A stretch of DNA of 64,000 bases from Propionibacteriales bacterium (GTDB lineage: Bacteria > Actinomycetota > Actinomycetes > Propionibacteriales > Nocardioidaceae), in the NCBI GenBank assembly GCA_026392455.1, contig JAPLCB010000008.1, positions 434,001 through 498,000 of the forward strand, in the 5' to 3' direction. The notes under the pieces were generated by a model. It was given only the letters and a program-made list of their open reading frames with translations, did no database searches and had not been told where the DNA came from. The position numbers and the translations under genes are program-made. The first letter of the stretch is position 1. Each line of letters begins with the position of its first letter. Below are positions 34,140 to 58,763 of the stretch, in pieces.

Positions 34140-35798
34140 TCAGCCGATCGCTGCCGCCGCGGCCCGAGCGGCGGTCCGGCCGGAGAAGATGCAGCCACCC
34201 AGGAAGGTCCCCTCCAGCGCGTTGTAGCCGTGAACGCCACCGCCACCGAACCCCGCTACCTCGCCTGCGGCGTAGACACCAGGCAGGGGCGCTCCGCCGG
34301 GCTGGAGCACGCGGGCATCGAGGTCGGTGTGCAGGCCGCCGAGGGTCTTGCGGGTCAGGATGTTCAGCCGTACGGCGATCAGCGGGCCGTTCTTCGGGTC
34401 ACCGAACTTGTGCGGGCTCGCCGTCCTGATCAGCTTGTCGCCGCGGTAGTGGCGGTGCCCGCGCATGTAGGTGATCTGGATGTCCTTGGTGAACTCGTTG
34501 TCGAGCTCGCGGTCGCGCTCGGTGATGGTCCTGGTCAGTCCCTCGACGGTGATCAGGTCGGAGCCGGCGACCTTGTTCATCCCGGCCACCAGATCGGTGA
34601 CGTTGTCGGCGACCACGAAGTCCTCGCCGTGCTGCTTGAACGCCTCGACCGGGCCCGGGGCACCGGGCCTGACGCGGGAGAGCAGCAGCTTGATGTCCTT
34701 GCCGGTCAGGTCCGGGTTCTGCTCGGACCCCGAGAGCGCGAACTCCTTCTCGATCACCTTCTGGGTCAGCACGAACCACGAGTAGTCGTAGCCGGTACGC
34801 ATGATCGCGCCCAAGGTGCCGAGGGTGTCGAAGCCCGGCAGGTACGGCGCCGGGAAGCGTGCGCCGGTGGCCGAGAGCCAGAGCGACGACGGACCGGGCA
34901 GGATCCGGATGCCGTGGTTCTCCCAGATCGGGTCCCAGTTCCGCAGGCCCTCGGTGTAGTGCCACATCCGGTCGGGATTGATGATCTCGGCCCCCGCGGC
35001 TTCGGTGATGAACTGCATCCGGCCGTCCACGTGGGCCGGCACGCCGGCGACCATCGTCCTCGGCGGCTCGCCGAGCCGCTCGACCGGCCACTGCTTGCGG
35101 ACCTGCTCGTGGTTGCCGCCGATGCCGCCCGAGGTGACGATCACGGCTTGGGCGCTGTAGGTGAAGTCGCCGATCTCGGTTCGGTTGGACGCCTTGCCGC
35201 GCTCCATGGCGTCGTCGGCCAGCAGCGCTCCGGTCACGCCGGTGCAGGTGCCGTCGGTCATCACCAGGTCGTCGACGCGGTGGCGGAAGCAGAGCTCGAT
35301 CCGGCCCCGGGCGACCGCCTCGCGGACCCGTCGCTCGAACGGCGCCACGACCCCCGGGCCGGTGCCCCAGGTCAGGTGGAACCGCGGGACCGAGTTGCCG
35401 TGACCCCCGGCGAGACCGCCGCCGCGCTCGGCCCAGCCCACCACCGGGAACAGCCGCAGGCCCTGGTCGTGGAGCCACTGCCGCTTCTCGCCGGCCGCGA
35501 ACCCGACGTACGCCTCGGCCCACCGGCGCGGCCAGTAGTCGGACTCACGGTCGAACTGAGCGCTGCCCAGCCAGTCCTGGAGGGCGAGGTCGTAGGAGTC
35601 CTTGATGCCCATCCGACGCTGCTCGGGCGAGTCGACCAGGAAGAGACCGCCCAGGGACCAGAACGCCTGTCCGCCCAGACTCTGGGAGGGCTCCTGGTCG
35701 AGGAGGAGCACCTTCTTGCCGAGGTCGGCGAGCTCCGCGGCAGCGACGAGTCCGGCCAGGCCGGCTCCGACGACGATGACGTCGGCATCAGTGGTCAT
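34140..35798 (-). CDS. FAD-binding dehydrogenase, 3-ketosteroid dehydrogenase/fumarate reductase-like
   Basis: 552-residue flavoprotein of the FAD-binding-2 family. The N-terminal Rossmann motif is DVIVVGAGLAGLVAAAELAD with LLLDQE. Then come SLGGQAFWSLGGLFLVDSPEQ, QAVIVTSGGIGGNHEQVRKQW, and the C-terminal FAD loop LPGVYAAGEVAGFGGGGVHG with NALEGTFLGGCIFSGRTAAR. It is close to the family of KstD-like 'FAD-binding dehydrogenases' in actinobacteria that are usually annotated without substrate. Single gene, convergent with the DUF559 gene (17-base gap). Steroid activity is not shown by context. Confidence 0.88.
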   Translation of the reverse strand: MTTDADVIVVGAGLAGLVAAAELADLGKKVLLLDQEPSQSLGGQAFWSLGGLFLVDSPEQRRMGIKDSYDLALQDWLGSAQFDRESDYWPRRWAEAYVGFAAGEKRQWLHDQGLRLFPVVGWAERGGGLAGGHGNSVPRFHLTWGTGPGVVAPFERRVREAVARGRIELCFRHRVDDLVMTDGTCTGVTGALLADDAMERGKASNRTEIGDFTYSAQAVIVTSGGIGGNHEQVRKQWPVERLGEPPRTMVAGVPAHVDGRMQFITEAAGAEIINPDRMWHYTEGLRNWDPIWENHGIRILPGPSSLWLSATGARFPAPYLPGFDTLGTLGAIMRTGYDYSWFVLTQKVIEKEFALSGSEQNPDLTGKDIKLLLSRVRPGAPGPVEAFKQHGEDFVVADNVTDLVAGMNKVAGSDLITVEGLTRTITERDRELDNEFTKDIQITYMRGHRHYRGDKLIRTASPHKFGDPKNGPLIAVRLNILTRKTLGGLHTDLDARVLQPGGAPLPGVYAAGEVAGFGGGGVHGYNALEGTFLGGCIFSGRTAARAAAAAIG

Positions 35799-37873: not shown

Positions 37874-38623
37874 TCAGATCAGCTTCTTGAAGACCGGCAT
37901 CGGGGCGTGCTTCATCACGAAGCCCAGCGGAGCCCACGGCAGTCCCGGGACGGCGGCCGAGTCGACCTCCCGCTCGATCGCGGAGACCATCGACCTCACG
38001 CCCTTCTCGGTGCTCGCCATCAGCGGCGTGCTCTGCTCGACCTTGTCGTTCATCTCCGAGGCGATGTAGCCCGGGTACAGGACGGTCACCTTGATCGGCT
38101 TGCCGTAGAGCTCGGCGCGCAGACCCTCGGCCAGGTGCGCGACCCCGGCCTTGGTGGCGGCGTACGTCGTCAGCGCCTTGGGCATCCCGCGGACCGCTGA
38201 CATCGACGAGATCATCACGTAGTGCCCGGCGTTCTGCTCCCGGAAGATCTCCATGGCCGCCTCGGACTGGCAGAGCGCCGCGACGAAGTTCGTCATCGCG
38301 GTCTCCCGGTTGGCGTCGTACCGGCCGGTGCCGAGCGGGGCGCCCTTGCCGAGGCCCGCGTTGATGACGATCCGGTCGAGGGTGCCGAAGTCGGCCTTGA
38401 ACGCCCGGAAGACCTCGAAGACCTGGTCGTCGTCGGTCACGTCGAGGGCGCGGAGCTCGACGCGACGCGCCGGCGAGGCGGCCAGGATCTCCGCCTTCAA
38501 CGACTCCAGCTTCTCGGTACGGCGCGCGCAGAGCGCCAGGTCGTAGCCCAACGCTGCGAACTGCCGGGCCATCTCGGCACCCAGCCCACTGCTCGCGCCG
38601 GTGATCAGGATCGTCCGTGCCAT
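37874..38623 (-). CDS. short-chain dehydrogenase/reductase (last gene of the five-gene operon)
   Basis: 249-residue classical SDR: cofactor motif ILITGASSGLGAEMARQFA (TGxxxGxG, residues 8-15), NAG motif VINAGLGKG, Ser in MISSMSAVRGMPKALTT, catalytic YAATK. The substrate region ends FVMKHAPMPVFKKLI. Start ATG 38623 with AGGT upstream, 8 bases past the stop of the phosphatase gene, so it belongs to the operon starting at 42470. Probably an NAD(P)-dependent oxidoreductase acting on a hydroxyacyl or keto intermediate; the real substrate is unknown. A longer same-strand frame extends into the phosphatase gene and is not real. Confidence 0.88.
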   Translation of the reverse strand: MARTILITGASSGLGAEMARQFAALGYDLALCARRTEKLESLKAEILAASPARRVELRALDVTDDDQVFEVFRAFKADFGTLDRIVINAGLGKGAPLGTGRYDANRETAMTNFVAALCQSEAAMEIFREQNAGHYVMISSMSAVRGMPKALTTYAATKAGVAHLAEGLRAELYGKPIKVTVLYPGYIASEMNDKVEQSTPLMASTEKGVRSMVSAIEREVDSAAVPGLPWAPLGFVMKHAPMPVFKKLI

Positions 38624-38631
38624 CGTGAGAC

Positions 38632-39306
38632 CTATCGGTAGGACAGCGTGCCGGGCACGCTGTCGAGGTGGGACTGCTCGTTGTACGAGAGCAGGTTGAC
38701 GCCGCGCGAGCCGGAAACCAGGCGGGTGAGGCCCGAGTTGACGCTCATCCGGTTGAGCTTGGTCCACAGGTCGGCCCGCGGTGCGGCACCGCCGAGGACC
38801 GAGGCGACGGCCCAGGCGACCGGACCGCCGGACGTGAAGACAGCGACGGTGCCGGACCCGGCGAGCGCGACCGTCCGGTCCAGCGCCGCGGCGACCCGCT
38901 CGGTGAAGGCGACGAAGGTCTCCTCGTACGGCCGGTCGTCGCCGGCGATCCACCCGGCGGTCGCGGCCTCGAACCAGCGCTGGAACTCGGCCTTGGTGGG
39001 CTCCGGACCGACGTGGGCGGCGGTCTCCTCGGGGTGCGCCGCCAGGACGGCCAGGAAGTCGAACTCGTCCCAACCAGCGTCGACCACCAGGTCACCGGCC
39101 GACCAGCCCGCGGCGGCCGCGCAGGTCTCGGCGGTCTCCCGGTGCCGTCGCATCCGGCCACCCACGATCGTGGTGGCCTCGATGTTGCGGGCGGCCAGCG
39201 CCACGCCCAGCAGGCGCGCCTGCTCGAAACCGAGCGGCGACAGCGCGTCGTAGTCAGCGGCGCCGAAGGAGGCCTGGCCGTGCCGGACCAGCACGATCTG
39301 ACCCAC
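38632..39306 (-). CDS. histidine phosphatase family protein
   Basis: 224 residues from GTG 39306, which directly abuts the TAA stop of the kinase gene. Phosphoglycerate-mutase-like fold with the phospho-His motif VLVRHGQASFG (His at residue 9), the second basic motif MRRHRETAETC, and the later catalytic His replaced in context by VAVFTSGGPVAWAVA, where Gly-Gly-Pro stands where many members have SHGG. This may alter activity. Operon position next to an APH-type kinase suggests it removes phosphate from a side product or balances the kinase (inference). Confidence 0.85.
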   Translation of the reverse strand: MGQIVLVRHGQASFGAADYDALSPLGFEQARLLGVALAARNIEATTIVGGRMRRHRETAETCAAAAGWSAGDLVVDAGWDEFDFLAVLAAHPEETAAHVGPEPTKAEFQRWFEAATAGWIAGDDRPYEETFVAFTERVAAALDRTVALAGSGTVAVFTSGGPVAWAVASVLGGAAPRADLWTKLNRMSVNSGLTRLVSGSRGVNLLSYNEQSHLDSVPGTLSYR

Positions 39307-40392
39307 TTAGATCTCTCCCGCGATGACCCGCAGGCACCGGTCCTCGTAGTAGTGCACGGCCTGGCCGAACATCGCGTACATCTCGTTGGTGGTCTGGCCG
39401 TGGAAGTAGCGGTAGTAGATCTGCTGGGCGATCACCGCGAACCGGAAGAGCCCGTAGACCTCGTAGAACTTCCACTCCTCCTCGGTGACGCTGTAGCCCA
39501 TCTGCTCGCAGTAGTAGGCCACGAACTCCCGCCGGTCGAACATCCCGGGCAGGTTGCTCGGCTGGCGGCGGACCAGCTGGAAGCCCTCGTCGTCGTCCGG
39601 GGTGACCCAGTACGCCAGCGTGCCGCCGAGGTCCATCAGCGGATCGCCGAGGGTGGCCATCTCCCAGTCCAGGACCCCGATGATCCGGCTGGGGTCCTCC
39701 CGGCTCAGGATGACGTTGTCGAACCGGTAGTCGTTGTGGATCACGCAGTTGGCGACATCGGCCGGCATCCGCTCGACGAGCCAGTCCATCACCGCGGTGA
39801 ACGCCGGCGCGTCCTCGGTGATCGCGTTGCGGTAGCGGCCCGACCACCCGGTGATCTGCCGCTCGACGTAGCCCGAGCCCTTGCCCATCGCCGCGATCTC
39901 CGGGATCGCGGTGTCGACCCGGTGCAGCTTGATCAGAGTGTCGATGAAGGTCCTGTTCAGCGCCCGGGCCGAGGTCTCGTCGAGGTCGAGCTCAGCGGGC
40001 AGGTCGCGCCGCGGGATGATCCCGTCGAGCCGCTGCATCACGTAGAACTCCGAGCCGATCACCGACTCGTCGTCACAGAAGGCCACCATGTCGGGCACCA
40101 GCCCGAAGGGCCCCTTGAGCGCGGACTGGATCCGGAACTCGCGGCCCATGTCGTGGGCACCGGCCGCCTTCTTGCCGCGCGGCGGTCGCCGCAGGATCAG
40201 GTCCTGGTCGGCGGTCCGCAGCGAGTAGGTGAGGTTGGAGGCACCGCCGCCGAACTGCTGGATCTCCACGTCGCCGACGAGGTCGACGCCGTGCCCGGCG
40301 AGCCAGGTCCGGACGGCGTCGAGGTCGAACGAGTCCTCCTCACGAACCGAGCTGGCGCCTTCGATGGCCGAACCGCTGGGGTTGTCAGGCAC
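39307..40392 (-). CDS. APH-fold phosphotransferase, ACAD10/11- and LvaA-like
   Basis: 361-residue kinase-like protein, start GTG 40392 with GGAG 8 bases upstream. Nucleotide-binding N-lobe (IQQFGGGASNLTYSLRT, LILRRPPRG), catalytic loop CVIHNDYRFDNVIL (Brenner motif; catalytic Asp 221) and the metal-binding VLDWEMATLGDPLMDLG. This APH subfamily is associated with acyl-CoA dehydrogenases. In animals it is fused to them (ACAD10, ACAD11), and in Pseudomonas levulinate catabolism LvaA phosphorylates the hydroxyl of 4-hydroxyvaleryl-CoA. It lies between SDR and phosphatase genes in a compact operon that also contains such a dehydrogenase. Probable role: 4-hydroxyacyl-CoA kinase. Confidence 0.85.
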   Translation of the reverse strand: MPDNPSGSAIEGASSVREEDSFDLDAVRTWLAGHGVDLVGDVEIQQFGGGASNLTYSLRTADQDLILRRPPRGKKAAGAHDMGREFRIQSALKGPFGLVPDMVAFCDDESVIGSEFYVMQRLDGIIPRRDLPAELDLDETSARALNRTFIDTLIKLHRVDTAIPEIAAMGKGSGYVERQITGWSGRYRNAITEDAPAFTAVMDWLVERMPADVANCVIHNDYRFDNVILSREDPSRIIGVLDWEMATLGDPLMDLGGTLAYWVTPDDDEGFQLVRRQPSNLPGMFDRREFVAYYCEQMGYSVTEEEWKFYEVYGLFRFAVIAQQIYYRYFHGQTTNEMYAMFGQAVHYYEDRCLRVIAGEI

Positions 40393-40395
40393 GTT

Positions 40396-41223
40396 TCACT
40401 CCATCGCGTTCAGTCGGGCGGCCTGCTTGCGCATGACCGCGTTGTAGCCGTCACGGTCCGCGACCTTGAACCCGTACGCCGCCCGGGCGGCTTCGTCGGG
40501 AAGGATCACCTCGTCACCGTTGTCGAGCCCGGCGAGCACCGCGGCAGCGATGTCGTCGGCGCTGACCGGCGAGTTCGCGACCAGGGCGCCGATCACGGTC
40601 CCGACCGCGACGTCGGTGCCCTGCATGGTGTCGATCAGCGGCGTCCGGAAGTAGGACGGGCAGACCACGCTGACCGCGATGCCGTACTCGGCCAGCTCGT
40701 GCGCGGCAGTCTCGCTGAACGCGACGACCGCGGCCTTGGTCGCGTTGTACGACGCCATCCCCGCCGGGTGCACCAGGCCGGCCAGCGACGCGGTGTTCAC
40801 GATCGTGCCGCTGCCCTGGGCCTTCATCAGGCCCACGAAGGTCCTGGTCCCGCGGACCACCCCGAAGAGGTTGATCTCGGTGATCCACTGCCACTCGTCC
40901 AGGCCCGCCACGTCGAGGCGCCCGCCGCCGGCCACGCCGGCAGTGTTGAAGAGCAGGTCCAGGCTCCCCCACTTCGCGAGCACGCGTTCGTGCGCGGCGG
41001 CCCAGTCGGCATCGGAACGGACGTCGAGGGTCAGGTACTCGACCCCGTCGATCGGCCCGAACTCAGCCGACGGCGGGTTCACGTCGGCACTGATGACCTC
41101 GTCGCCCCGGGCGACCAGCGCCCGGCAGAGAGCAGCCCCCAGACCGGACGCGCCGCCGGTGACCAGAGCACGTCGTGGTCTCGAGGCTCGCTCCGCTCGC
41201 ACCTCGACCGGCGGAGCGTCCAT
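40396..41223 (-). CDS. short-chain dehydrogenase/reductase (second gene of operon)
   Basis: 275 residues. SDR core: ALVTGGASGLGAALCRALVA (TGxxxGxG), FNTAGVAGGG, NTASLAGLVHPAGMAS with Ser, and YNATK (Tyr, Lys). The start ATG 41223 overlaps the last base of the acyl-CoA dehydrogenase stop. The first 16 residues (PPVEVRAERASRP...) are encoded by a copy of the dispersed GTTTCGAGG repeat and precede the first beta strand, an acquired extension. The family can reduce or oxidise hydroxy/keto acyl-CoA. It is comparable by context to LvaD, the ketone reductase of levulinate catabolism. Confidence 0.88.
   Translation of the reverse strand: MDAPPVEVRAERASRPRRALVTGGASGLGAALCRALVARGDEVISADVNPPSAEFGPIDGVEYLTLDVRSDADWAAAHERVLAKWGSLDLLFNTAGVAGGGRLDVAGLDEWQWITEINLFGVVRGTRTFVGLMKAQGSGTIVNTASLAGLVHPAGMASYNATKAAVVAFSETAAHELAEYGIAVSVVCPSYFRTPLIDTMQGTDVAVGTVIGALVANSPVSADDIAAAVLAGLDNGDEVILPDEAARAAYGFKVADRDGYNAVMRKQAARLNAME
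41177..41214. repeat. dispersed hairpin repeat, GTTTCGAGG family, inside coding sequence
   Basis: GGTCTCGAGGCTCGCTCCGC then TCGCACCTCGACCGGCGG. It matches the repeat copies near 60385 and 24951 (GAGGCTCGCTGCGCTCGCACCTC type) but lies within codons 4-16 of the SDR gene, right at its start and 9 bases from the overlapping dehydrogenase stop. Confidence 0.75.
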
Positions 41224-42470
41224 CAGAGGTGCTTCCCGATCTCGATCCGGGCCACGACGCCGCGGTGCACCTCGTCCGGACCGTCCGCCAGCCGCAGGGC
41301 GCGGGCGTTGGTCCACATCCCGGCGAGCGGGAAGTCCTGGGACATGCCGCCGCCACCGTGCAGCTGGATCGCCATGTCGATCACGTTCTGGGCCACGTTC
41401 GGCACGATCACCTTGATCTGGCTGACCTCGGACAGGGCGTTCAGCGGCCCACCGACGTCGAGCTTCCAGGCTGCGTTCAGGACCAGCAGCCGGGCCTGGT
41501 CGATCGCGATCCGGGCGTCCGCGATCCGCTCCATGTTCCCACCGAGCCGGACCAGCGGCTTGCCGAAGGCGCTGCGCGAGGTGCCGCGCTTGATGGCCAT
41601 CTCGAGCGCGACCTCGGCCTGGCCGATCAGCCGCATGCAGTGGTGGATCCGGCCGGGACCGAGACGGCCCTGGGCGATCTCGAAGGCGCGGCCCTCACCG
41701 AGCAGGATGTTCGCCTTCGGCACCCGGACGTTGTCGAAGGAGACCACGCCGTGGCCGACGGGCTCGTCGTACACGTTCATCGTGGAGAGCATCCGGTCGA
41801 TCGTCACGCCCGGGGTGTCCAGCGGGACCAGCACCATGGTGTGCCGGTGGTGACGGTCGGCGTCAGGGTCGGTGAGCCCCATGAAGATCATGATCTTGCA
41901 GTCCGGGTGGCCGACGCCGGTGGAGAACCACTTGGTGCCGTTGATCAGCACCTCGTCACCGTCGACGATCGCGGTCGCCGCCATGTTGGTGGCGTCCGAG
42001 GACGCCACGCCCGGCTCGGTCATCCCGAAGGCCGAGCGGATCTGTCCGTCGAGCAGCGGCTCGAGCCACTGCTTCTTCTGCTCGTCGGTGCCGTACTTGA
42101 GCAGCACCTCCATGTTGCCGGTGTCCGGGGCGTTGCAGTTGAAGACGTACGGCGCCAGGAAGGTGGCCCGCCCCATCAGCTCGGCCAGCGGCGCGTAGTC
42201 GGAGTTGCTCAGACCGGCGCCGCCGTGGGTGCCGTACTGCTCGGCGTACGGCTGGTCGTGACCGACCGGGAGGAAGAGGTTCCACAGGCCCTGGGCCCGG
42301 GCCTTGGCGCGGAGCTCGTCCATGATCGGCGACTCCGCCCAGGTCCCGGCGGCACGGGCCGCTGCCACGTCGTGGTGGTAGGCGTCGTGGACGGGTTCGA
42401 TCTCGTGGGTGACGAAGTCGGAGACCAGTCCAGCGAGTTCCTGGGCGCGCGGCGAGTGCGAGAAATCCAT
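41223..42470 (-). CDS. acyl-CoA dehydrogenase, ACAD10/11- and LvaC-like
   Basis: 415-residue ACAD-family enzyme, first gene of the operon. Complete domains: AFGMTEPGVASSDATNMAAT (FAD-binding), VLINGTKWFSTGVGHPDCKI, SFDNVRVPKANILLGEGRAF, and C-terminal LHGGGGMSQDFPLAGMWTNARALRLADGPDEVHRG. This is the RLADGPDEVH type seen in ACAD10/ACAD11 relatives, not the beta-oxidation IYEGT type. In related systems it acts on a phosphorylated 4-hydroxyacyl-CoA. Start ATG 42470 has no recognisable Shine-Dalgarno sequence and a palindromic operator ends only 5 bases upstream, so the transcript may be leaderless. Confidence 0.92.
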   Translation of the reverse strand: MDFSHSPRAQELAGLVSDFVTHEIEPVHDAYHHDVAAARAAGTWAESPIMDELRAKARAQGLWNLFLPVGHDQPYAEQYGTHGGAGLSNSDYAPLAELMGRATFLAPYVFNCNAPDTGNMEVLLKYGTDEQKKQWLEPLLDGQIRSAFGMTEPGVASSDATNMAATAIVDGDEVLINGTKWFSTGVGHPDCKIMIFMGLTDPDADRHHRHTMVLVPLDTPGVTIDRMLSTMNVYDEPVGHGVVSFDNVRVPKANILLGEGRAFEIAQGRLGPGRIHHCMRLIGQAEVALEMAIKRGTSRSAFGKPLVRLGGNMERIADARIAIDQARLLVLNAAWKLDVGGPLNALSEVSQIKVIVPNVAQNVIDMAIQLHGGGGMSQDFPLAGMWTNARALRLADGPDEVHRGVVARIEIGKHL

Positions 42471-42475
42471 GACGC

Positions 42476-42492
42476 TGACAGTAGCGCTGTCA
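42476..42492. promoter_or_regulatory. operator TGACAG-N5-CTGTCA (acyl-CoA operon)
   Basis: TGACAGTAGCGCTGTCA, perfect 6-base arms (7 with the flanking C/G), 5 bases upstream of the operon's first start codon. Identical half-sites and spacing occur at 51056 (fadA) and 58731 (AMACR). Confidence 0.8.
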
Positions 42493-42514
42493 GGGTTGCC
42501 GCGCGACGGGTGGC

Positions 42515-47422: not shown

Positions 47423-49612
47423 TCAGGCAGCCGGGAAGGTGCCACCGCTCTCGGCGACGGCGACCAGGCTGGCCGGGGGCTCGAAGCGCTCGCCGTACTT
47501 GGCCGCGAGCTCACGGGCCCGGGCGACGAAGCCGGCCGGGCCGCGGCCCGCCTTGCCCTCGAAGCCGTTGATGTACTGGATCGCCCCGCCCTTGACGGCC
47601 GGGAAGCCGATGCCGAAGATCGAGCCGATGTTGGCCTCGGCGGCGGAGTGCAGGACTCCCTCGTCGAAGCACTTCACGGTCTCGATCGCCTCGACGACGA
47701 GCTGACGGTCCTGGATGTCCTCGACCGGGATCTGCTCCGCGGCGACCGGGAACACCTCGGCGAGGCCCTCCCACAGCCCGGTGCGGTTGCCGGCCTCGTC
47801 GTAGGAGTAGAAGCCCTTGCCGACCAGCTTGCTGGAGCGGCCGAGCTCGATCATCTTGTCGATGACCGCCTCGGACGGGTGGGTGACCCAGGTGCCGCCG
47901 TCGCGCTCGGTCGCCTCGATCGACGCCTTGCGGATCTTGTACATCAGCTCCATGTTCAGCTCGTCGCTGATCTGGAGCGGACCGACCGGGTAGCCGGCCA
48001 TGGTGGTGGCGCGGTCGATGCTCTGCGGGTGGACGCCCTCGGCGAGCATCGAGATGCCCTCGTTGATCTGGGTCCCGATCACCCGCGAGGTGTAGAAGCC
48101 ACGGCTGTCGCTGACCACGATCGGGGTCTTCTTGATGAGCTGCACGATGTCGATCGCCTTGGCGGTCGTCTCGTCGGTCGTCTCGGCACCGCGGATGATC
48201 TCCACCAGCGGCATCTTGTCGACCGGCGAGAAGAAGTGCAGACCGATGAAATCGGCCGGCCGGTCGACACCGGCAGCCAGCTCGGTGATCGGCAGCGTCG
48301 AGGTGTTGGAGCACAGCAGCGCGTCGGCGTTGATGTGCTCGGCGATCTCGGCGAAGACCTTGGCCTTCAGGGCCGGGTCCTCGAAGACGGCCTCGATGAC
48401 CAGGTCGCAGCCCTTGGCGTCGGCCGGGTTGTCGGTCGCGTGGATCCGGCCGAGCAGCGCGTCGGACTTCTCCTGCGTCAGCTTGCCGCGGGAGACGGCC
48501 TTCTCGTTCAGCTTCTGCGTGTACGACTTGCCCTTCTCGGCAGCCTCGATCGAGATGTCCTTGAGGACCACGTCGAGCCCGGCGCGTGCACAGACGTACG
48601 CGATGCCCGCGCCCATCATGCCGGCGCCGAGGACGAGCACCTTGGTGGGCTGGAACTTGTCCACGCCCTGGGGACGCAGCGAGCCCGAGTTGATCGCCTG
48701 CAGGTCGAAGAAGAACGCCTGGATCATGTTCTTCGCGGTCTGGCCGGTGGCCAGGGACGCGAAGTAGCGCGACTCGATCTTCTCGGCGTTGGCGAAGTCG
48801 ACCTGGGCGCCCTCGACCGCAGCGGCCATGATCGCCTCAGGGGCCGGCATGTGCACGCCCTTGAGCTGCTTGCGCAGGATCGCCGGGAAGGCCGGAAGCA
48901 TGCCCGCCAGGCCGGGGCTGGCCGGGGTACCGCCGGGCATCTTGTAGCCCTTCTGGTCCCACGGCTGCGCCTTGGCATCGTCGTTGTCCTTGTTGTCCAG
49001 CACCCACTTCTTCGCCGCGGCGAGCAGCTCGTCGGCCGGGACGATCTCGTGGATCAGGCCCTTCTCCTTGGCGGCAGCCGGCTGGTAGCGGGTGCCCTGG
49101 AGCAGCACGTCCATCAGCGCGGACTGGATGCCGAGGAGGCGGACCGTACGGGTGACGCCGCCGCCGCCCGGCAGCAGGCCGAGGGTGGACTCCGGGAGAC
49201 CGATCTCCAGGCGGGCGTCGGCCGCGATCCGGTGCCGGAAGGCGAGCGCGATCTCCAGGCCGCCGCCGAGCGCGGCGCCGTTGATCGCGGCCACGGTCGG
49301 GACACCGAGGAGCTCGACGCGACGCAGCTGGGCCTTGATGGCCTGGCTCTGGTCGAAGATCTCCTGGGCCTGCTCCGGCTGCACCTGCTGGAGCGTGGTC
49401 AGGTTGCCACCGGCGAAGAACGTCTTCTTCGCGCTGGTGATGACGACACCCGTGATCGAGTCCTTCTCGGACTCCAGGCGGGCGACCGCTTCCTCCATCG
49501 AACGGCCGTACAGCTCGTTCATGGTGTTGGCGCTGGCGGTCGGGTCGTCGAGCGTGAGGACGACGATCCCGTCGGCATCCTTCTCGTACTTCACTGCGGA
49601 TTCTTCAGACAT
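47423..49612 (-). CDS. fadB: bifunctional enoyl-CoA hydratase/3-hydroxyacyl-CoA dehydrogenase (FadB-type)
   Basis: 729-residue fatty-acid beta-oxidation multienzyme. The N-terminal crotonase domain (about 1-270) has the two catalytic glutamates in GGGLEIALAFRHR and IGLPESTLGLLPGGGGV. The middle Rossmann 3-hydroxyacyl-CoA dehydrogenase domain starts with VLVLGAGMMGAGIAYVCARA and holds SNTSTLPITELAAGVDRPAD and IGLHFFSPVDKMPLVEII (catalytic His near HFFSP). The C-terminal 3HCDH domain ends AAVESGG. Partner thiolase fadA lies upstream, separated by a 135-base gap with a repeat; together they form the trifunctional complex. Followed by a U-tailed terminator. Confidence 0.95.
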   Translation of the reverse strand: MSEESAVKYEKDADGIVVLTLDDPTASANTMNELYGRSMEEAVARLESEKDSITGVVITSAKKTFFAGGNLTTLQQVQPEQAQEIFDQSQAIKAQLRRVELLGVPTVAAINGAALGGGLEIALAFRHRIAADARLEIGLPESTLGLLPGGGGVTRTVRLLGIQSALMDVLLQGTRYQPAAAKEKGLIHEIVPADELLAAAKKWVLDNKDNDDAKAQPWDQKGYKMPGGTPASPGLAGMLPAFPAILRKQLKGVHMPAPEAIMAAAVEGAQVDFANAEKIESRYFASLATGQTAKNMIQAFFFDLQAINSGSLRPQGVDKFQPTKVLVLGAGMMGAGIAYVCARAGLDVVLKDISIEAAEKGKSYTQKLNEKAVSRGKLTQEKSDALLGRIHATDNPADAKGCDLVIEAVFEDPALKAKVFAEIAEHINADALLCSNTSTLPITELAAGVDRPADFIGLHFFSPVDKMPLVEIIRGAETTDETTAKAIDIVQLIKKTPIVVSDSRGFYTSRVIGTQINEGISMLAEGVHPQSIDRATTMAGYPVGPLQISDELNMELMYKIRKASIEATERDGGTWVTHPSEAVIDKMIELGRSSKLVGKGFYSYDEAGNRTGLWEGLAEVFPVAAEQIPVEDIQDRQLVVEAIETVKCFDEGVLHSAAEANIGSIFGIGFPAVKGGAIQYINGFEGKAGRGPAGFVARARELAAKYGERFEPPASLVAVAESGGTFPAA

Positions 49613-49747: not shown

Positions 49748-50962
49748 TCAGACCAGTTCGACGATGGTGGCGATGCCCATGCCGCCGCCGACGCAGAGCG
49801 TGGCCAGGCCGCGCTTCTGGCCGCGACGCTCGAGCTCGTCGATCAACGTGCCGAGGATCATCGCGCCGGTAGCACCCAGCGGGTGACCCATCGCGATCGC
49901 GCCGCCGTTGACGTTGGTGATCTCGTCGGAGATGCCCATGTCGCGCATGAACCGCATCGCGACTGCGGCGAACGCCTCGTTGATCTCGAAGAGGTCGATG
50001 TCCTTGGTCTCCAGGCCGGCCTTGGCCAGCGCCTTGCGGGCGGCCGGGGCCGGACCGGTGAGCATGATCGTCGGGTCGGCGCCGGAGACGGCCGCGGAGA
50101 TGATCCGGGCGCGCGGGGTCAGACCGAGGTCCTTGCCGACCTGCTCGGTACCCAGCGCGACCAGGGCCGCGCCGTCCACGATGCCCGAGCTGTTGCCGGC
50201 GTGGTGGACGTGGTTGATCTTCTCGACCCAGTGGTACTTCTGCAGGGCGACGTCGTCGAAGCCCATGTCGCCGTGCATCTGGAAGGACGGCTTCAGGCCG
50301 GACAGCGACTCGACGCTGGTGCCGGGCTTGATGAACTCGTCACGCGCCAGGATGGTCAGGCCGTTGCGGTCCTTGACCGGGATGACGGAGTTGTCGAAGA
50401 GGCCGTTGGCCTGCGCCTTGGCGGCGCGCTCCTGGGACTGCGAGGCGTACGCGTCGACGTCCTCACGGCTCCAGCCCTCGAGGGTGGCGATCAGGTCGGC
50501 GCCGATGCCCTGCGGGACGAAGCTCGCGGCGAACGCGGTCGCCGGGTCGGACGCCCAGGCGCCACCGTCGGAGCCCATCGCGACGCGGGACATCGACTCG
50601 ACACCACCGGCGAGGATCAGGTCCTCGAACCCGCTGCGGACCCGGCCGGCGGCCTGGTTGACGGCCTCGAGGCCGGAGGCGCAGAACCGGTTCAGCTGGA
50701 CGCCGGCAACGGTGTCGGGCAGGCCTGCGGCGAGCGCAGCGGTCTTGGCGATGTCGCCACCCTGGTCACCGATCGGCGAGACGACGCCGAGGACGAGGTC
50801 GTCGATCCGGTTCGGGTCCAGGTTCGGGTTGCGCTCCTGGATCGCGTCCAGCAGACCGACGACGAGGTCGACCGGCTTGGTCGCGTGCAGCGAGCCGTCC
50901 TTCTTGCCCTTTCCGCGCGGCGTGCGGATGGCGTCGTACACAAAAGCTTCGGGTTGTGCCAT
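49748..50962 (-). CDS. fadA: acetyl-CoA acyltransferase (thiolase, FadA)
   Basis: 404 residues from ATG 50962; a longer frame upstream begins with unrelated sequence. Catalytic Cys in [18 protein letters not shown], active-site His in [18 protein letters not shown], second Cys in [12 protein letters not shown], and the family opening [18 protein letters not shown]. It cleaves 3-ketoacyl-CoA to acetyl-CoA and a shortened acyl-CoA. First gene of fadA-fadB. Operator TGACAG-N5-CTGTCA lies 94 bases upstream, inside a likely promoter. Confidence 0.95.
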
Positions 50963-51055
50963 GACCGTCCCAACTAGTCGTTGAATAGGTAGAGCGTTGA
51001 TGCTCCGGAACTGCTCGGAGGCGCGCCGGATCGACGCCGACCTCCCACCCCATTG

Positions 51056-51072
51056 TGACAGTAAGACTGTCA
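51056..51072. promoter_or_regulatory. operator TGACAG-N5-CTGTCA (fadA promoter)
   Basis: TGACAGTAAGACTGTCA, 7-base perfect arms (TGACAGT/ACTGTCA) with a 3-base centre. On the minus strand TTGACG precedes it and CAATGG follows at 18 bases spacing, so the operator fills the spacer of a sigma-70-like promoter. Same site as at 42476 and 58731. Confidence 0.8.
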
Positions 51073-51140
51073 ACGTCAATGGGCGGCTTGTTGTGGGTTA
51101 ACTCACCCGCCGGAATTGGAACGACCCGGACACTGGAGGA

Positions 51141-57559: not shown

Positions 57560-58720
57560 TTACTCCGGCTGGACCGCCGCGCCGCTCTCGATCAGCGCGT
57601 CGACATCGTCGATGCCCCACGCGGCCAGTGCCTCCCGGGTGTGCTGCCCGGCACCGGCCGACGGCGGCAGGCCGAGGGTCGCGCCGGTGCGCGAGAACCG
57701 CGGGGCCGGCGCCGGCTGCATCCGGCCGTGGTGCTCGACGAAGATCTCGCGGCTCTTCATGTGCGGGTGCTCGAAAGCCTCGGTCAGCGGGATGATCGGC
57801 GCGACGCAGGCGTCGGTGCCGTCAAAGATCTCGCACCACTCGGCCTGGGTCTTCTCGGCGAACTTCGCGGTGAAGACCGCGCGCAGCTCGTCGACCTTCG
57901 AGAAGTCCCAGCGGTCCGGCGCGCTCTCGCGTACGTCGAGCAGGTCGAGCAGGATCTCGTAGAACTGCGGCTCCAGCGCACCGACCGACATGTGCCGGCC
58001 GTCGGCGGTCTCGTAGATGTCGTAGTACGGGGCGCCCCCGTCCAGGAGGTTCGCGGCGCGTTTCTCCTGGTAGTTGCCACCCTCGAGGAACGCGGCCGTC
58101 ATCGCGTTCAGGTTCGCGGTGCCGTCGACGATCGCCGCGTCGACGACCTGGCCCTGGCCGGAGACCTTGGCCTCCAGCAGGGCGGCCAGGATCCCGATCA
58201 CCAGGTACGTCGAACCACCACCGAAGTCACCGACCAGGTTCGCCGGGAACTGGGGCTTGCCGGGCACCTGACCGAGCCCGAAGAGGGTCCCGGTGATGGC
58301 GATGTAGTTCATGTCGTGGCCGGCGGCCTGCGACCACGCGCCGGTCTGGCCCCACCCGGTCATCCGCCCGTAGACGAGCTTCGGGTTGCGGGCGAAGCAG
58401 TCGTCGGGGCCGAGGCCCATCCGCTCGGTGACGCCGGGGCGCATGCCCTCGACCAGGACGTCGGCGGTCTCGACGAGCTTGAGGACGGTCTCGACCGCGG
58501 CCGGGTCCTTGAGGTTGAGCGCGACGCTGGGACGGCCGCGGTTGAGGAAGTCGTGGGTGCCGCCGGTGAGGGCCTGACCCCCCGGACGCTCGACGCGGAT
58601 GATGTCCGCGCCGAGGTCGGCGAGGATCATGCAGGCGTGCGGGCTCGGGCCGATGCCGGCGATCTCGACGACCTTGATTCCCTTGAGCGGGCCGGTGCCC
58701 TGTCCCAGTTCGATAGTCAT
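57560..58720 (-). CDS. mcr: alpha-methylacyl-CoA racemase (CaiB/BaiF family)
   Basis: 386-residue CoA-transferase III fold enzyme that epimerises 2-methylacyl-CoAs for branched-chain/sterol side-chain oxidation. Catalytic signature residues of MCR/AMACR are present: His in GHDMNYIAITG, Asp in NLVGDFGGGS, Glu in YDIYETADGRHMSVGALEPQ. Other typical segments: ILADLGADIIRVERPG, FLNRGRPSVALNLKDPA, VLVEGMRPGVTERMGLGP. Start ATG 58720. It carries the TGACAG-N5-CTGTCA operator 10 bases upstream, tying it to fadA-fadB and the five-gene acyl-CoA operon. Confidence 0.94.
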   Translation of the reverse strand: MTIELGQGTGPLKGIKVVEIAGIGPSPHACMILADLGADIIRVERPGGQALTGGTHDFLNRGRPSVALNLKDPAAVETVLKLVETADVLVEGMRPGVTERMGLGPDDCFARNPKLVYGRMTGWGQTGAWSQAAGHDMNYIAITGTLFGLGQVPGKPQFPANLVGDFGGGSTYLVIGILAALLEAKVSGQGQVVDAAIVDGTANLNAMTAAFLEGGNYQEKRAANLLDGGAPYYDIYETADGRHMSVGALEPQFYEILLDLLDVRESAPDRWDFSKVDELRAVFTAKFAEKTQAEWCEIFDGTDACVAPIIPLTEAFEHPHMKSREIFVEHHGRMQPAPAPRFSRTGATLGLPPSAGAGQHTREALAAWGIDDVDALIESGAAVQPE

Positions 58721-58730
58721 GGCGGGATCA

Positions 58731-58747
58731 TGACAGATTCACTGTCA
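58731..58747. promoter_or_regulatory. operator TGACAG-N5-CTGTCA (AMACR)
   Basis: TGACAGATTCACTGTCA, same half-sites and spacing as at 42476 and 51056, 10 bases before the AMACR start codon. Confidence 0.8.
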
Positions 58748-58763
58748 GCGTCCAGGGGCGGTC

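Follow-up and report, generated by a model that had tools for sequence, protein, structure and literature searches.

Gene content of the operon

In a 64,000-nucleotide stretch of a Propionibacteriales genome (contig JAPLCB010000008.1, positions 434,001 to 498,000; hereafter the window), a five-gene operon lies on the minus strand at window positions 37874-42470. It comprises, in the order of transcription, genes for an acyl-CoA dehydrogenase (ACAD), a short-chain dehydrogenase/reductase (SDR1), an APH-fold kinase, a histidine phosphatase family protein, and a second short-chain dehydrogenase/reductase (SDR2), joined by junctions of -1, +3, 0, and +8 bases (Table 1). A reading of the window made earlier from sequence alone (the sequence-only reading) had described five co-transcribed genes with junctions of -1 to +8 bases, and our analysis confirms the gene positions, strand, and domains. 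The host genome, 3.55 Mb in size, is that of a soil-type actinobacterium of the genus Nocardioides, and the closest named loci in the kinase scan described below are in N. marmorisolisilvae and N. marmoriginsengisoli. As set out below, the operon is probably a bacterial module of the ACAD10/11 (LvaA/LvaC) type, through which 4-hydroxyacyl-CoAs gain access to beta-oxidation.

Table 1. Genes of the operon, its promoter, and copies of the palindrome in the window
Feature	Position	Strand	Size or context	Domain or remark
LvaC/ACAD10-11-type acyl-CoA dehydrogenase (ACAD)	42470-41223	minus	415 aa	Pfam Acyl-CoA_dh domains
SDR1, short-chain dehydrogenase/reductase	41223-40396	minus	275 aa	Pfam adh_short
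APH-fold kinase	40392-39307	minus	361 aa, GTG start	Pfam APH, E 1.4e-47
Histidine phosphatase family protein	39306-38632	minus	224 aa, GTG start	Pfam His_Phos_1, E 6.7e-19
SDR2, PRK08251 family	38623-37874	minus	249 aa	adh_short; NCBIfam PRK08251 389.6 bits, cut-off 253
-10 box TACTGT	42478-42483	minus	7 nt before ACAD ATG	proposed leaderless promoter
Palindrome CTGACAG-N5-CTGTCAG	42475-42493		over operon promoter	exact; proposed operator
Second palindrome copy	51055-51073		upstream of fadA (thiolase, 49748-50962), then fadB (47423-49612)	genes on minus strand
Third palindrome copy	58730-58748		upstream of AMACR-like CoA-transferase family III gene (57560-58720)	gene on minus strand

The ACAD and the kinase carry residue signatures of ACAD11

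For ACAD10 and ACAD11, phosphorylation of 4-hydroxyacyl-CoA, followed by elimination of the phosphate, is established (PMC12440821, PMC11342911). In mouse ACAD11, the 4-phosphate sits in a pocket formed by R626, H634, and R637, D753 serves as the catalytic base, R631 is an arginine common to all ACADs, and activity requires the pocket and catalytic residues of this signature (PMC12440821). The closest solved chains to the operon ACAD are 4HR3 (605 bits) and human and mouse ACAD11, with 48% identity to the ACAD domain of the mouse protein. Alignment to 8V3U reveals that the stretch RLGPGRIHHCMR holds the equivalents of R626, R631, and H634-C-M-R637 (mouse ACAD11 numbering), and that the catalytic Asp equivalent to D753, at a position where the usual residue is Glu, is present in the stretch LADGPDEVH. 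The phosphate-pocket residues are kept in 26 aligned ACAD relatives, with the Cys of the motif present in at least 90%. In a control alignment of the 14 other ACADs of the genome, the shared arginine is present in all, and the HCMR motif, its upstream Arg, and the Asp are present in none; the full signature is unique to the operon ACAD among the 15 aligned ACADs of the genome. We therefore propose that the ACAD is a 4-phosphoacyl-CoA phosphate-elimination flavoenzyme.

The best solved relatives of the kinase are 9o56, 3dxp, and mouse ACAD11. Residue-by-residue comparison with the ACAD11 APH domain (8V3V) reveals the motifs HND-x4-N, GREF, and ERQ, with equivalents of D220 and N225 (catalytic) and of R86 and R176 (CoA-contacting) all kept; the same four positions are conserved in relatives of the kinase. 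Ten APH matches are present in the genome, and the operon kinase is the best of them. A maximum-likelihood tree built from 34 kinases, with poor resolution of its deep branches and several long rows, places the operon kinase in a supported clade (98/99) with other ACAD-linked kinases, spanning Actinomycetota, Pseudomonadota, Myxococcota, and Bacteroidota. Both ACAD11/3dxp and the other APH proteins of the genome fall outside this clade, and none of the latter groups with the operon kinase. We propose that the protein is an APH-fold 4-hydroxyacyl-CoA kinase.

The gene neighbourhood is conserved across phyla

When 84,980 species genomes were scanned with the kinase alignment, the 80 best-matching loci, from four phyla, were obtained; the sample is biased, since kinases of this sort went into the query and the survey covers the top 80 loci only. 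An LvaC-type ACAD is present in 72 of the 80 loci, a histidine phosphatase in 69, SDR2 in 54, and SDR1 in 46, and in most the kinase gene directly adjoins the phosphatase gene. The order ACAD-SDR1-kinase-phosphatase-SDR2 recurs within the genus, within the order, and in Gammaproteobacteria and Alphaproteobacteria, far beyond chance. Plasmid records add Azospirillum, Ideonella, a member of the Rhodobacteraceae, Deinococcus, Pseudoalteromonas, Acinetobacter, and Streptomyces. The operon is thus not peculiar to the window.

A survey from the phosphatase side, covering 185 genomes of the class of one gammaproteobacterium, found 15 such phosphatases in 14 genomes, 13 of them no more than 1.5 kb from such a kinase and/or ACAD (11 of 13 when the seeding genome is left out). 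Across 246 Actinomycetota genomes, the ACAD type is common, being present in 107, and the phosphatase is rare, being present in 8.

On the megaplasmids of Deinococcus grandis and D. radiodurans (L076, L078), genes for a MaoC dehydratase, a PaaI-type thioesterase, and an SDR are joined upstream. The record NZ_CP064203.1 (L080), 3.97 Mb from Acinetobacter baumannii, is filed as a plasmid and is by its size a chromosome. A plasmid of Azoarcus sp. KH32C (L193:2621-6678) carries one run of ACAD, SDR, kinase, DUF6285, and histidine phosphatase genes, and therefore a DUF6285 protein and the phosphatase can co-occur. DUF6285 is presumably the family of LvaB; no match to a DUF6285 protein was found in the genome of the window.

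The operon promoter lies within a palindrome shared with lipid genes

A -10 box precedes the ACAD gene at a spacing that suggests leaderless transcription: TAnnnT occurs 6-9 nucleotides before the ATG in 28 of 40 G+C-rich upstream regions, as compared with 2.5% of shuffles. Because of this box, and because the upstream DUF4012 gene is merely a genus-level neighbour, we place the start of the operon at the ACAD gene. The genes for DUF4012, bPH_2 proteins, an ABC transporter, and PRK12834 were considered as parts of the system and rejected, their proximity reflecting genus-level synteny that is absent from more distant loci. An exception is PRK12834, an FAD-binding dehydrogenase that is encoded near the operon in the genus of the window (34140-35798 in the window) and also adjoins the operon on one Rhodobacteraceae plasmid (L077:1-1610).

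In the clade of the window, the -10 box lies inside the palindrome CTGACAG-N5-CTGTCAG. The exact core TGACAG-N5-CTGTCA, with sites identified by pattern search only, occurs at 5 positions in the genome, three of them within the window, as compared with 0 for a reversed-pattern control. Besides the operon, fadA, and the AMACR-like gene, sites precede a gene for a luciferase-like oxidoreductase and, with one mismatch, a gene for another ACAD that is divergent from a MerR gene. All four related Nocardioides genomes have the palindrome upstream of fadA and of the AMACR-like gene, and it is kept before the operon, the oxidoreductase gene, and the second ACAD gene in those of the four whose loci were examined. 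TGACAG-N5-CTGTCA is likely the operator of a lipid-catabolism (beta-oxidation) regulon, as judged from site position and conservation. A literature search found no published TGACAG-N5-CTGTCA regulon, and a leaderless operon promoter within a palindrome common to lipid genes appears to be new.

Sites outside the window lie at L201:3105, L201:14038, and L200:3980, and the likely regulon also takes in a peroxiredoxin/acyl-CoA ligase region; a further one-mismatch site (C3:759456), which has no plausible promoter position, was treated as chance. In other Actinomycetota (loci including L067, L092, L098-L101, L106, and L112), a different palindrome, TTGAGCA-N-TGCTCAA, is found at the promoter of the same operon, approximately 36 bases before the ACAD start and often with a divergent TetR gene. 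A TetR-type gene is nearby in 19 of the 80 kinase-matched loci.

Proposed pathway

We infer the reactions, the chain length of the substrate, and the roles of the SDRs and the phosphatase from the gene order, the residue signatures, their conservation, and the shared operator. In the proposed pathway, the kinase would use ATP to phosphorylate a 4-hydroxyacyl-CoA on its C4 hydroxyl. In the LvaC-type flavoenzyme, the Asp would then abstract the alpha proton, the phosphate held by the Arg/His/Arg pocket would be expelled, and FAD would return the electrons, yielding a 2-enoyl-CoA. FadBA, encoded behind the same operator, would take over this product; since 2-enoyl-CoA is the substrate of FadB, the shared operator fits the pathway. 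One or both SDRs may interconvert 4-oxo- and 4-hydroxyacyl-CoA, either feeding in 4-oxo acids or setting the stereochemistry that the kinase wants, with SDR1 as the proposed oxidoreductase.

In the reading that we favour, the histidine phosphatase would dephosphorylate stray 4-phosphoacyl-CoA or free 4-phospho acid, serving as a drain that protects the cell from a trapped intermediate. Such a drain would have a substrate, because free 4-phospho acids appear in animal cells while the pathway runs (PMC11342911). This is the least certain step of the pathway, and we put its chance at somewhat below even.

The sequence-only reading had proposed a related gamma-hydroxyacid route with a phosphatase added to the lva set. 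The route appears well supported by the residue signatures of the ACAD and the kinase, each compared with ACAD11, and because both defining enzymes carry every residue tested for, we assign the module as an LvaA/LvaC (ACAD10/11) variant. The phosphatase, absent from the lva set of Pseudomonas putida, is no peculiarity of this operon: it is a regular member in several phyla, and in Pseudomonas citronellolis one stands beside the LvaA homologue where LvaB would be (PMC6692424).

The histidine phosphatase has serine in place of the second catalytic histidine

An AlphaFold model of the phosphatase, with a mean predicted local distance difference test score (pLDDT) of 93.7, matches PGAM5, PhoE, RosC, and phosphoserine phosphatases (Foldseek E ~1e-11; VIA-align Z ~22). 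None of the 101 relatives examined departs from the R8-H9 nucleophile pair, from R54 as the second arginine, or from E81 as the acid. In HMMER alignments to 9mmh, 6e4b, and 4ij5, the second catalytic His of the superfamily maps to Ser159, and this column is occupied by Ser in each of the 101 relatives, within the motif TSGG or SSGG. The eight other histidine phosphatases of the genome, one of which (L222) is less well aligned, have His at the column; Ser occurs in the operon member only. The protein thus has the nucleophile, second Arg, acid Glu, and fold of branch 1 of the histidine phosphatase superfamily and lacks its second His, and on alignment and modelling we classify it as a family member by its fold and the greater part of its catalytic core, in which one defining residue differs. 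A literature search found no survey of this phosphatase or of its missing histidine, and the invariant His-to-Ser replacement appears to be new.

The replacement raises the alternative that, within the same module, the protein is not a working phosphatase and instead holds phosphorylation in check by binding to the phospho-intermediate or the kinase. A precedent is the HAD domain of ACAD10, which lacks one Asp of the DxD motif and has negligible phosphatase activity; mutating it raises kinase activity, indicating that it restrains the kinase (PMC11342911). The uniform presence of Ser, set against His in the eight other members, and the direct adjacency of the kinase and phosphatase genes are consistent with this alternative. 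The invariance of H9, both arginines, and E81, which a dead enzyme need not keep, and the occurrence of some relatives of the phosphatase without a kinase argue against it, and we consider it rather unlikely. We also suggest, tentatively and at clearly less than an even chance, that the protein serves solely to guard the 4-phosphoacyl-CoA step, its catalytic core having been eroded or retuned, and that it corresponds in bacteria to the incomplete HAD domain of ACAD10. If so, two unrelated phosphatase folds would have been attached independently to the same kinase, each checking the trapped phospho-intermediate.

Points against the pathway and other substrates and roles

Several points weigh against the assignment of the operon as a 4-hydroxyacyl-CoA module with a phosphatase drain. 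The kinase has only 31% identity to the ACAD11 kinase domain. No acyl-CoA synthetase, such as LvaE, was found by Pfam among the five operon genes, as the sequence-only reading had also noted. Searches of SDR1 and SDR2 against solved structures returned generic SDRs only, with no tie to LvaD. The absence of the second catalytic histidine may impair phosphatase activity. Finally, the six Actinomycetota copies of the phosphatase that were examined are not near a kinase or ACAD of this type; since the phosphatase is linked in most kinase loci and solitary in these copies, it is a strong but not exclusive partner of the module. TSGG phosphatases away from such a kinase or ACAD in other Actinomycetota are found at loci L166, L167, L169, L170, and L171.

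The module could retain the phosphate-elimination chemistry and act on another hydroxyacyl-CoA, for example one with a branched, terpenoid- or sterol-derived chain or a 5-hydroxy group. The AMACR-like gene and the luciferase-like oxidoreductase in the regulon suggest branched or unusual chains, and the clade of the operon kinase stands apart from ACAD11; the ACAD11 C4-phosphate pocket residues, however, are all kept, and we judge another substrate unlikely. It is very improbable that the phosphatase removes the phosphate on the main route, as proposed for the phosphatase beside the LvaA homologue of P. citronellolis (PMC6692424), and that the ACAD performs ordinary dehydrogenation: hydrolysis would do no more than reverse the phosphorylation, release of the phosphate is carried out in known cases by LvaC and ACAD10/11 themselves, and the ACAD of the window has the residues that this takes. 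The identification of the kinase as a functional antibiotic (aminoglycoside) or choline kinase in an incidental operon position, for which only the APH fold and weak NCBIfam hits (thiamine kinase, drug phosphotransferases), all far below the cut-offs, speak, is hardly credible and was rejected in view of the residue match to ACAD11, itself among the best solved relatives, the linkage to an ACAD in nine-tenths of the loci (72/80), and the position in the tree apart from the other APH proteins of the genome.

Comparison with known systems

Assignment of the 4-hydroxy-acid pathway in animals dates only from 2024-2025, and apart from lva its relatives in bacteria have hardly been studied. The presence of the operon in at least four phyla, together with an operator shared with fadBA, points to the phosphate-assisted loss of a 4-hydroxyl as a common part of bacterial beta-oxidation and not a levulinate speciality. 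With a catalytic His invariably lost, much as the HAD domain of ACAD10 is incomplete, the question of why a phosphatase-like partner accompanies the kinase becomes directly testable with small bacterial proteins.

The operon resembles P. putida lvaABCDE, which serves levulinate/4-hydroxyvalerate catabolism, in having separate genes for an APH-type kinase, an LvaC-type ACAD, and an SDR in one operon and in the same predicted steps of phosphorylation and phosphate elimination, LvaA and LvaC having been compared by description. It is not the P. putida lva operon proper: the LvaE synthetase is absent, and a histidine phosphatase and two SDRs are present. The lva cluster of P. citronellolis LA18T is closer in content, bringing together an LvaA homologue, a histidine phosphatase, an LvaC homologue, and an SDR, without lvaB (PMC6692424); the phosphatase beside an LvaA homologue was thus already reported, by authors who suggested dephosphorylation of 4-phosphovaleryl-CoA as its possible function (PMC6692424). 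That cluster differs in its order (kinase-phosphatase-ACAD-SDR), in the single SDR listed, and in lying beside a levulinyl-CoA synthetase and LvaR.

PDB 4HR3, a putative acyl-CoA dehydrogenase and the closest solved structure to the ACAD of the window, has the motif HHAMR where the latter has HHCMR. A kinase/ACAD pair of Burkholderia pseudomallei substitutes for the ACAD10 domains in vitro (PMC11342911). Mammalian ACAD10 and ACAD11 share with the operon the signature residues of the kinase and the ACAD, and in ACAD10 the kinase likewise has a degenerate phosphatase-fold partner; they differ in being fused polypeptides and, for ACAD10, in that the partner is a HAD domain, the fold of which is unrelated to that of the histidine phosphatase of the window.

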